Origin: Exiguobacterium sp. s122
Lineage (GTDB): Bacteria; Bacillota; Bacilli; Exiguobacteriales; Exiguobacteriaceae
Direction: 5' to 3'
NCBI RefSeq assembly: GCF_018618475.1
Contig: NZ_JACSMD010000001.1
Span: forward strand, 558,001 to 622,000
DNA: 64,000 nt
Made by a program: the position numbers and the translations under genes. Below the pieces are notes generated by a model. The model saw only the letters and a program-made list of their open reading frames with translations. It was not told where the DNA came from and did not search any database. Numbering within the stretch: the first letter of the stretch is position 1; every line of letters begins with the position of its first letter. Positions 32,505-35,404 of this stretch are shown piece by piece.

Positions 32505-33100
32505 TTCATCAATTCATTCAAGGCACGACAGAGACGACGTTTGTACTATTGCATGGGACCGGCGGAACGGAACAGGACTTGATTCCGCTCGCGAAAGAAT
32601 TGAACGCGGACGCCAACATCTTGACGCTTCGGGGTGACGTCCTCGAGAACGGCATGTCCCGCTTCTTCCGCCGTCACGCGGAAGGTGTGCTCGACTTAGA
32701 AGATTTGAAGAAGCAGACGGAACGTTTCCTCGCCTTCCTCGACGAGGCAGCCGTGAAGTGTGGGGTGGACCGTGACAAGATGATTCCGCTCGGCTACTCG
32801 AACGGGGCCAACTTGATCGGCTCGGCGCTCTATCGCCAGAACGCATTTAACGCCTCGCTCTTGTTCCATCCGATGGTACCGGACCGCTCGCTCACGCTCC
32901 CGAGTCTGTCAGGTGCGAACGTATTCATCTCGGCAGGGGAACGTGATCCGATTTGCCCGAAAACAGAAACAGAAGAGCTGACGTCGACACTCCGGACAGC
33001 CGGAGCGGACGTCGAACTCTTCTATCACGGAGGCGGGCATGAACTGCGGATGGAGGAAGTCGAGGCGGCCCGGACATGGGTCGCGTCGTTCCTCGGCTGA
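32501..33100 (+). CDS. mhqD: Carboxylesterase, MhqD-like
   Basis: This 199-residue alpha/beta hydrolase of the phospholipase/carboxylesterase group has the oxyanion segment LLHGTGGTEQDL, nucleophile GYSNGANL, Asp in AGERDPICP and His in HGGGHELRM. It resembles MhqD of B. subtilis, part of the MhqR quinone response. It starts inside the mhqO stop (ATGA) and shares its operon. It converges on the next minus-strand gene with a one-base gap and no visible terminator. Confidence 0.87.
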   Translation: MIHQFIQGTTETTFVLLHGTGGTEQDLIPLAKELNADANILTLRGDVLENGMSRFFRRHAEGVLDLEDLKKQTERFLAFLDEAAVKCGVDRDKMIPLGYSNGANLIGSALYRQNAFNASLLFHPMVPDRSLTLPSLSGANVFISAGERDPICPKTETEELTSTLRTAGADVELFYHGGGHELRMEEVEAARTWVASFLG

Positions 33101-33101
33101 C

Positions 33102-33596
33102 TTACGCCATCTTCTTCGGCTTCGTTGTAGACGGCCGAGAGTAGACGACGAGGACACCGCGGTCAATCAAATAAGCGGCGAAAAGACGTTTCGCCTCTTC
33201 AGAACGAACAGTTCGGTCGATGTGGATATACAATCGGCCGAGCTTTTTTTGTGAGGTGCGGGTGAGGAGCCAAATCGAGTCGAGCGTATATTCCCAGCTC
33301 TTGAGCGTATCGGGCCCGATGTAGAGGTAACGGTTCGCGGTTCGCTCGAGCAAGTAGTTGAGCCACCAGACGTCCCGGGCGAGCTTCATGACGACACCGG
33401 TCAAAAATGTGATGCCAATGAAAAAGATTGCGGCCAAAATCGGATGCATGGCGGTGAACCGGTCGCGCAACGGTTCGAAGGCGACGAGGAACAGTCCGAC
33501 GGAAAAGGCGCCGGTGAACCACCAAAATCCGAAGTTAGAGAATGATCGTTTCGGGTCATGGACCATGTGATGACGGTTGCGGATGACAGAAGACAT
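33102..33596 (-). CDS. Hypothetical two-helix membrane protein
   Basis: This 164-residue protein has an N-terminal cytoplasmic segment, two close helices at about residues 24-43 (FWWFTGAFSVGLFLVAF) and 50-71 (PILAAIFFIGITFLTGVVM), and a C-terminal soluble part of about 90 residues that reads like alternating strands and helices (DSIWLLTRTSQKKLGRLYIH). This may be a PH-like membrane-linked domain (inference). The start follows AAAAAGGAGGTGTAGAGA. Not recognised. Confidence 0.7.
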   Translation of the reverse strand: MSSVIRNRHHMVHDPKRSFSNFGFWWFTGAFSVGLFLVAFEPLRDRFTAMHPILAAIFFIGITFLTGVVMKLARDVWWLNYLLERTANRYLYIGPDTLKSWEYTLDSIWLLTRTSQKKLGRLYIHIDRTVRSEEAKRLFAAYLIDRGVLVVYSRPSTTKPKKMA

Positions 33597-33624
33597 TCTC
33601 TACACCTCCTTTTTTATTAGAATA

Positions 33625-33653
33625 TTCAGACTATTTGGTAAATCTACTATACT
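33625..33653 (+). promoter_or_regulatory. Plus-strand promoter with no gene directly downstream
   Basis: TTCAGA (33625-33630), a 17-bp spacer and TATACT (33648-33653). The next plus-strand gene begins 200 bases on, beyond a terminator-like hairpin. Confidence 0.5.
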
Positions 33654-33659
33654 ATACAT

Positions 33660-33777
33660 TACCCAAACTCGTCTATTTGAATACGCGACAAACGTGTTAA
33701 TGGATGAGCATTTTTTGACGAAATCGCTTGCAGGTCGTCAAATGTGGGAATGATGACAGTGACGTCATCATTTTTTT
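33660..33777 (+). ncRNA. Candidate small RNA or attenuated leader
   Basis: Between the promoter at 33625 and the terminator at 33751 lies about 118 bases with no ribosome site followed by an open frame. It contains the hairpin TTTGACGA (33714-33721) with TCGTCAAA (33735-33742), then the terminator. It may be a free RNA, or a leader controlling the downstream acyltransferase. The transcript start is inferred. Confidence 0.35.
33751..33777 (+). terminator. Orphan Rho-independent terminator
   Basis: TGATGAC (33751-33757) pairs with GTCATCA (33764-33770), followed by seven T residues. No plus-strand gene ends here; the nearest is mhqD at 33100, beyond an opposing gene. Confidence 0.7.
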
Positions 33778-33855
33778 GTGAATTCGTAATTTCCGTACGA
33801 CATAAAATCGGCTATGATGAGTGAGGAAAATTTAGATAGAACTTGAGGAATGTTT

Positions 33856-34911
33856 ATGCGAAATCATTGGTACGATAATATTAAAGGCGTGCTCGTCTTG
33901 CTCGTCGTGTTCGGTCACTTGCTGACCGATGTACGCGGCGCCTACGACGACCTGTTGCCGAACTGGATTTATTTATTCTTATACACGTTTCATATGCCGT
34001 TATTTATCATGCTGAGCGGTTACTTCTTCCGGGAGAACCGTTATTTGCGCGTCATCCAGCTGTTCGTCGTCTATGTCATCTGGCAAGTCATCCTCGGGTC
34101 ATGGTTCGCCTTCACCGAGGGCATCCCGCTCCTGTCGATCGACAATCCGGGACTGAACGTCTTGAAACCGTATTGGGCGCTCTGGTACTTGATGGCGATT
34201 ATCATTTGGTACGTCATCACGCCATATGTCACTCAGTTGAAAGGGTACGTTCTTTATGCGCTCTTATTCGCGCTTCTATTCGGCTTCCAGGCCGAGTCGA
34301 CCGGCTTCTTTGCGCTCCGCAAGGTCATCATGTTCTATCCGTTCTTCTTGATTGGCAACTGGATGAGCGAGCGCAACACGTTGAACTTCTTCGAACTCCC
34401 AAAGCGGGCCGAACGACGCAATCGTTATCGTCTTGGTGGAGCGACCGTCTTCACGGTACTCACGCTCGGTTTGCTCGCTTCGATGAGTTTTCAGCGTACG
34501 GACGCGTTTTATCACGTCGGTAACTTGTTCAAGTTCCGCTTCGCGTACGAGACGGCGGTGCCGGAAGCGATATGGAGCGGGCCGTTCGCGTTCCTCATCG
34601 TTTATACGGTGTCGCTTCTTATGGCGATCAGCTTCGCGCTCATCGTGCCGGGACGTGAACTCCCGCTCTTCACGCGGGCCGGAAAATATAGCCTGTACGT
34701 CTACTTGGTGCACGTCTTCCTCGTCGTCGCTTGGAAGGCGTTCGTGCCGACGGCATTCATGCCGACGTCGTGGCAGCAACTCCTCGTCTTGTTCGGTGTC
34801 TCGGTCCTCATGGTCATGATCATTATCAGCCCACCGGTCGTGCGGCTGTTGCGTCCGCTCGTCGAGATTGATGTCCGTCGCGTGCAGGACGAACGGGCGA
34901 CAAAGGCGTAA
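33856..34911 (+). CDS. Membrane acyltransferase (acyltransferase 3 family)
   Basis: This 351-residue integral membrane enzyme has about ten helices. The N-terminal RNHWYDNIKGVLVLLVVFGH carries the family's Asp and the His of FGHLL, followed by HMPLFIMLSGYFFR and a C-terminal SLYVYLVHVF. Such proteins O-acetylate or acylate cell-surface sugars; the acceptor is unknown. ATG 33856 is favoured because GAGGA lies six bases before it; ATG 33850 would be too close. Upstream lies the orphan promoter-terminator unit. Confidence 0.88.
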   Translation: MRNHWYDNIKGVLVLLVVFGHLLTDVRGAYDDLLPNWIYLFLYTFHMPLFIMLSGYFFRENRYLRVIQLFVVYVIWQVILGSWFAFTEGIPLLSIDNPGLNVLKPYWALWYLMAIIIWYVITPYVTQLKGYVLYALLFALLFGFQAESTGFFALRKVIMFYPFFLIGNWMSERNTLNFFELPKRAERRNRYRLGGATVFTVLTLGLLASMSFQRTDAFYHVGNLFKFRFAYETAVPEAIWSGPFAFLIVYTVSLLMAISFALIVPGRELPLFTRAGKYSLYVYLVHVFLVVAWKAFVPTAFMPTSWQQLLVLFGVSVLMVMIIISPPVVRLLRPLVEIDVRRVQDERATKA

Positions 34912-34985
34912 ACCCTTTTCTAAACGCCCGTTTTCCGCTACACTTTAAGGTAGAGTAATGAAACTAGAGCTAAGGAAGTGACACC

Positions 34986-35321
34986 ATGCCATACGGAAAT
35001 GGAATGAACAGTACTGAAGGAGACGTCAACGTCTCACGCCACGTCGTGGAAATGATTGCCGCGGTCGCAGTGAAAGAGACGAAGCACGTCTCGTTCACAC
35101 AGGAAGACACGAAATTGTCAGAACGTGCCCTCATGAAGCACGTGAAAGTCGATGAGACCGAAGAAGGCGTCGTCATCCAGCTCGCGGTATTCGTCGCCTA
35201 TGGCCAGTCGATCATCAAGACGATCACGGCCGTTCAAGAGCGCATCACACAAGACATGGACACGATGCTCGCGATGACGCCGCTTGCGGTCAATGTGAAG
35301 GTCGTCGGCATCCAATTATAA
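34986..35321 (+). CDS. Asp23/Gls24 family envelope stress protein
   Basis: This 111-residue protein fits the Asp23 domain: an early GDVNVSRHVVEMIAAVAVKE, a middle KHVKVDETEEGVVIQLAVFV and a terminal TPLAVNVKVVGIQL. The family includes Asp23 (a membrane-associated stress protein of staphylococci) and YloU/YqhY. No membrane segment is present. The ribosome site is AAGGAAGTGACACC. Followed by a terminator; monocistronic. The partner AmaP/AmaF proteins of staphylococci are not nearby. Confidence 0.85.
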   Translation: MPYGNGMNSTEGDVNVSRHVVEMIAAVAVKETKHVSFTQEDTKLSERALMKHVKVDETEEGVVIQLAVFVAYGQSIIKTITAVQERITQDMDTMLAMTPLAVNVKVVGIQL

Positions 35322-35328
35322 GCAACGG

Positions 35329-35354
35329 AAGAGGGGCGATGTGCTCCTCTTTTT
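35329..35354 (+). terminator. Terminator after the Asp23 gene
   Basis: AAGAGGGGC (from 35329) pairs with GCTCCTCTT, with one mismatch, followed by a T run. Confidence 0.65.
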
Positions 35355-35365
35355 AAATTTTTCTG

Positions 35366-35379
35366 CGAAAGCGGTTGCA
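35366..35379. promoter_or_regulatory. LacI-family/cre-like operator O1 at pgcM
   Basis: CGAAAGCGGTTGCA fits the cre/LacI-type consensus at 12 of 14 positions and overlaps the -35 TTGCAT. Confidence 0.5.
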
Positions 35380-35404
35380 TAGATAAGGCGATATCCGATA
35401 TAAT
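35375..35404 (+). promoter_or_regulatory. pgcM promoter
   Basis: TTGCAT (35375-35380), an 18-bp spacer and TATAAT (35399-35404). One operator overlaps the -35 and a second lies just downstream of the start site. Confidence 0.65.

Follow-up and report, generated by a model that had tools for sequence, protein, structure and literature searches.

What occupies the 253 bases that separate a minus-strand gene (33102-33596) from the plus-strand Acyl_transf_3 acyltransferase gene (33850-34911) in Exiguobacterium sp. s122? The initial annotation read this interval, in one genome, as an orphan transcription unit, with a promoter, an extra 8-bp hairpin and a T-run terminator and with no reading frame, and proposed that it could be a small RNA or a leader regulating the enzyme; every element that it named is present in the sequence. 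We analyzed the locus in the window, i.e. the whole stretch of 64,000 nucleotides from which it was taken (source genome, 2.98 Mb), and in related genomes. Most likely it is a control region of the ordinary kind, in which one terminator is real. We consider it probable that the region is a divergent control region of two genes, presumably governed by CodY, in which the minus-strand promoter may leak to the plus strand and, in some members of the genus, a terminator cuts this leak short. The features referred to below are the following, with positions in the window.

33102-33596, minus strand: gene for a 164-aa protein in which hydrophobic stretches are visible by eye; its promoter is the one on the minus strand.
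33621-33635, no strand assigned: 15-bp near-palindrome AATATTCAGACTATT, matching the CodY consensus AATTTTCWGAAAATT at 12 of 15 positions.
33625-33653, plus strand: TTCAGA-17-TATACT, the promoter of the initial annotation; at chance level, at most a leak from the shared -10 zone.
33646-33675, minus strand: promoter TAGACG-18-TATAGT, kept in relatives.
33714-33742, plus strand: inverted repeat of 8 bp, TTTGACGA/TCGTCAAA, not kept in relatives.
33749-33777, plus strand: intrinsic terminator with a 9-bp stem, a 6-nt loop and 7 T, in 12 of 19 genomes.
33813-33818, plus strand: TATGAT, probable -10 of the downstream gene, with a weak -35, in 19 of 19 genomes.
33850-34911, plus strand: Acyl_transf_3 acyltransferase, start perhaps at 33856.

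Matches to the 164-aa minus-gene protein occurred in 37 of the 61 genomes searched, namely all 19 of Exiguobacterium and all 18 of a sister genus included there, and the protein hit no Pfam or NCBIfam family (E 0.001). The intergenic region was matched, over 251 bases, in all 19 genomes of the genus, and 14 of 17 related loci came from Exiguobacterium, including E. alkaliphilum, aurantiacum, chiriqhucha and profundum. Glyoxalase-like and MhqD-like genes lie upstream on the plus strand, in the same order in 19/19 genomes. The MhqD-like gene and the minus gene are convergent, with stops at 33100 and 33102, one base apart, and a strict terminator scan (described below) found nothing between them. 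On the other side, 249-343 bases separate the minus gene from the acyltransferase in 11 of the 19 genomes, 510 in genome G006 and more than 800 in seven; these seven carry an extra gene of 184-195 aa before the acyltransferase (e.g. locus L081, 366-923, with equivalents in L082-L087), which is patchily distributed on the tree and, in the one example scanned, had no Pfam match at E 0.1. G006 has a 73-aa open reading frame whose beginning is similar to that of the extra gene. The acyltransferase itself may start at its second ATG (33856): of the 18 relatives from the genus, 15 have a match whose first aligned position is residue 2 or 3.

The two parts of the promoter claimed for the plus strand, TTCAGA (33625-33630) and TATACT (33648-33653), are present with their 17-bp spacer, but the pair does not exceed chance. 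At least one equally good promoter on either strand arose in 656 of 1000 shuffles, and the interval 33000-35400 holds two sites of this grade against 2.0 expected. The plus-strand -35 matches at just three of six positions in 13 of the 19 genomes and sits inside the near-palindrome AATATTCAGACTATT, while the -10 overlaps the -10 of a promoter on the opposite strand. That minus-strand promoter has the same score (9/12 for both) and is found throughout the relatives, as T[AG]GACG-18-TATAGT in 19/19 sequences of the genus and as T[AG]GACG-17-TATAGT in all 15 sister-genus sequences aligned (from 15 of the 19 genomes of that genus), i.e. in 34/34 sequences in total.

The near-palindrome lies just downstream of the expected start of this conserved promoter. 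Compared with the CodY consensus AATTTTCWGAAAATT, as the available text of PMC5314169 gives it, the box matches at 12 of 15 positions in 12 genomes of the genus, at 13 of 15 in the other seven, where 7/7 palindromic pairs are formed, and the 15 sister-genus sequences have 14 matches each; a CodY-type box of 12-14 matches is present in all 34. Within the window alone, a box with three mismatches is at chance level (4 matches vs 2.07 expected; 14 of 100 shuffles gave at least 4). G024, a genome of the sister genus, has seven places with at most one mismatch, the box among them, and a control with the reversed pattern gave none. The other six places all lie within 450 bases of a gene start, and the gene families concerned are the branched-chain amino acid carrier (two places), a family-5 solute-binding protein, a sodium:alanine symporter, AIR carboxylase and a class-V aminotransferase. 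These are the kind of target known for CodY. The source genome has a CodY gene; the box is not among its four places with at most one mismatch, and the genus form of the box recurs there once, beside genes without an evident tie to CodY. To judge from the box and its position, the control region of the minus gene is probably CodY-controlled. The arrangement resembles the CodY-repressed promoters of Bacillota, with their 15-bp AATTTTCWGAAAATT box, in that the box is near a conserved promoter and a CodY gene is present, and differs from them in that the putative target protein belongs to no family, the box is weaker in the genus and binding and regulation are predicted. A literature search on Exiguobacterium and CodY gave no title about this locus among the matches listed, and the single 'Cody' in PMC10714750 is the name of an author.

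Conservation along the region, expressed as mean pairwise identity over the 171 pairs of the 19 genomes, was compared with the 4-fold sites of the minus gene. Identity was 0.901 at 33615-33660 (box and minus promoter), 0.843 at 33661-33690 (the flank of that promoter's -35), 0.86 at 33745-33777 (terminator) and 0.703 at 33778-33832. The spacer at 33691-33744 reached 0.684, vs 0.65 at the 4-fold sites, which is a near-neutral rate. A scan in 12-base windows resolved the conservation into islands; within the region, identity was lowest at approximately 33684-33707, 33732-33743 and 33792-33809, and a weaker island lies at 33708-33731. What the comparison establishes is a conserved set of predicted elements, namely the minus promoter, the CodY-type box and the TATGAT, with a poorly conserved spacer between them that carries a terminator in 12 of the 19 genomes.

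The T-run terminator of the initial annotation looks real by the strict scan, which asked for a perfect stem of at least 8 bp with at least three G-C pairs, a loop of 3-8 nt and five T in seven: only 2 of 2000 dinucleotide shuffles of 33600-33850 gave one on either strand. Another scan did not list the terminator at 33749, probably on account of G-T pairs counted into the T run. The hairpin occurs in 12 of the 19 genomes and is absent from the remaining seven, which group as a single clade with support 1.00 when the acyltransferase and the minus-gene protein are used for the tree (the root within the genus is unsure). Where the hairpin occurs, 99.1% of the stem cells are paired; over all 19 genomes the figure is 82.9%, and no pair showed changes on both sides. 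Since the terminator exceeds chance and is kept in 12 of 19 genomes, some plus-strand transcript probably ends at 33749-33777.

The corresponding segment of the hairpin-less clade (33744-33791; loci L014-L020) is itself strongly conserved among its seven genomes, at 0.88-0.98 per 12-base window, and the segment may be kept for a reason other than the hairpin. A multi-site operator was considered for the terminator segment and rejected, the exact 16-mer occurring just once in each of three genomes searched.

The transcript that ends at the terminator could come from farther upstream, as read-through from the plus-strand glyoxalase-like and MhqD-like genes. The position of the last upstream stop on the plus strand (33100), next to the minus-gene stop at 33102, fits such a source, as does the fact that the strict scan finds no plus-strand terminator between 28844 and 33749. 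The order of these genes is, however, the same in all 19 genomes, yet seven have no terminator, and we regard read-through as quite unlikely to be what the terminator serves.

A genuine small RNA gene of about 110-120 bases that ends at the terminator is the reading that the initial annotation put forward first. We looked for a promoter of its own that is conserved and beyond chance, for an intrinsic terminator and for a body structure that is conserved or covarying, and found only the terminator, in 12/19 genomes. In the source genome, the fold of 33655-33780 is strong, beating its shuffles with z -3.05 (2 of 200 as good), and gaps in 33661-33790 are confined to two of the 19 sequences, one base each; these observations speak for a small RNA, together with a terminator that exceeds chance and whose stem, where it occurs, is almost completely paired. 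Against it, the 19 genus sequences, the source included, each fold differently, and the consensus of all 19 consists of seven pairs at -1.58 kcal/mol, none of them compensated. The extra 8-bp hairpin had been correctly seen in so far as the repeat TTTGACGA/TCGTCAAA is present at 33714-33721/33735-33742, but it is not kept in relatives: 53.9% of cells are paired against a shuffle value of 50.6, a level that 10 of 500 shuffles attained, and sliding the hairpin by one base raises the value to 63.8%, above that of the true register. Three of its pairs have changes on both sides. A 5' hairpin is likewise at the level of its shuffles (69.0% vs 69.1). When RNAalifold was given the 12 terminator-bearing genomes, 27 pairs were predicted, four with changes on both sides; three of the four are doubtful, since the long-range pairing in which they fall is interrupted and extends past the T run. 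No Rfam family matched at gathering score within the window, and a permissive search gave three weak matches (E 0.49-4.6), all far under the cut-offs, one of which, PhrS (E 1.2), spans 33661-33778. A dedicated small RNA is unsupported, because the spacer changes at a near-neutral rate, the 8-bp hairpin is not kept and the 19 sequences share no compensated fold; with the chance-level plus promoter and the seven genomes without terminator added, we consider a small RNA gene improbable. The intergenic small RNA genes of Bacillota also have hairpins, an intrinsic terminator and no supported open reading frame; they differ from this region, where no conserved body or fold was found, the promoter is at chance level and the terminator is missing in one clade. 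A search of the literature on small RNAs and terminators in Exiguobacterium found nothing on this locus.

The statement that the unit has no reading frame is right in substance, with the exception that one plus-strand frame of 58 aa, beginning with a TTG at 33577 (before the claimed promoter), stays open as far as 33753. No other plus frame is less closed: this one is open in 13 of the 19 genomes and stopped between 33664 and 33744 in six. A candidate start codon at 33694-33696 reads GTG in 10 genomes, ATG in four, CTG in four and ACG in one; the three codon positions have similar numbers of differences (1135, 982 and 1095), and the synonymous share of 0.228 was reached by 34 of 200 column shuffles in a test on 18 of the 19 genomes (G003 left out). 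A plus-strand peptide, despite the peptide-like look of its translation (RLFEYA..NVL..E.FL..RLA..GE), was rejected on these grounds; it has no support because of the stops, the varied start codon, the even codon-position changes and a synonymous share within the range of the shuffles. Two minus-strand frames have stops in just three of the 19 genomes, but their synonymous share is not above that of shuffles.

If the plus-strand RNA does not act as a small RNA, it could act as a regulated leader, with the terminator as an attenuator of the acyltransferase or of the gene that precedes it. The geometry would allow this, as 79 bases lie between the end of the T run and the ATG at 33856 on the same strand, and RNAalifold on the 12 terminator-bearing genomes predicts a pairing of columns 58-67 and 118-127 that spans the terminator, with three pairs changed on both sides. 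This pairing, however, is interrupted, uses bases past the T run and was not found with all 19 sequences. A leader is unlikely because the TATGAT, a predicted -10-like hexamer with a weak -35, is located past the terminator segment and before the gene in 19/19 genomes, because another gene, the one of 184-195 aa, stands between in seven and makes the next gene differ, and because the hairpin is missing in seven. We hold attenuation to be very improbable, and return to the divergent control region as the preferred reading.

At the same place in the sister genus there is a gene for a hydrophobic peptide of 34 aa, present in 19/19 genomes of that genus and in 0/19 of Exiguobacterium. The peptides are 91-97% identical to a composite query (loci L119-L130, L089-L098 and L100) and had no Pfam match at E 0.1; no promoter could be assigned to their gene. 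The region could accordingly be seen as the relic of a small-protein gene whose open reading frame is gone in Exiguobacterium and whose upstream part remains. This distribution speaks for a relic, and so does the alignment of seven genus and five sister-genus sequences along the control region, where a TTGACG-like stretch is common to both. On the other hand, a six-frame search finds no remnant of the frame in Exiguobacterium, and either state could be ancestral. A relic seems to us possible, if on the unlikely side, and it is compatible with the divergent control region that we favor. A more elaborate version, which we consider unlikely, would have a CodY-controlled bidirectional promoter drive a short non-coding plus-strand RNA with a clade-specific terminator in place of the sister genus's 34-aa peptide gene, so that a small-protein gene would have become a non-coding unit, or a non-coding unit a small-protein gene.

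As a divergent control region, the locus would work as follows. The minus gene would be read from the promoter at 33675-33646, and CodY, binding at 33621-33635 just downstream of the minus start, would repress it. The near-symmetrical ACTATACTATAC zone may give polymerase a weak plus-strand start at approximately 33660; the minus start, expected at 33639, is about 21 bp away. The terminator would then halt the plus-strand RNA, after about 110-120 bases, before the downstream gene. No conserved fold was found for this RNA, which, if made, need not have a function. In the text available for PMC10268837, Salmonella bidirectional promoters are described as having near-symmetrical -10 elements and pairs of starts 7-25 bp apart, and those on the chromosome as lying mostly between divergent genes. 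The locus studied here is similar to those promoters, as that text presents them, in its overlapping -10-like hexamers on both strands and its divergent genes. It differs in that its starts, approximately 21 bp apart, are predicted from hexamer positions alone, the plus strand is without a good -35, and a terminator then follows in 12 of the 19 genomes. Literature searches on start sites, RNA-seq and sRNAs gave no entry containing the word Exiguobacterium among the matches listed.

The analysis points to a further likely target of CodY in Exiguobacterium, a gene of unknown function. It is also an example in which a row of promoter, hairpin and terminator seen in one genome was resolved by the relatives, in which the conserved promoter is on the opposite strand. 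If the plus-strand leak is real, the locus would show a bidirectional promoter next to which a terminator has been gained or lost.
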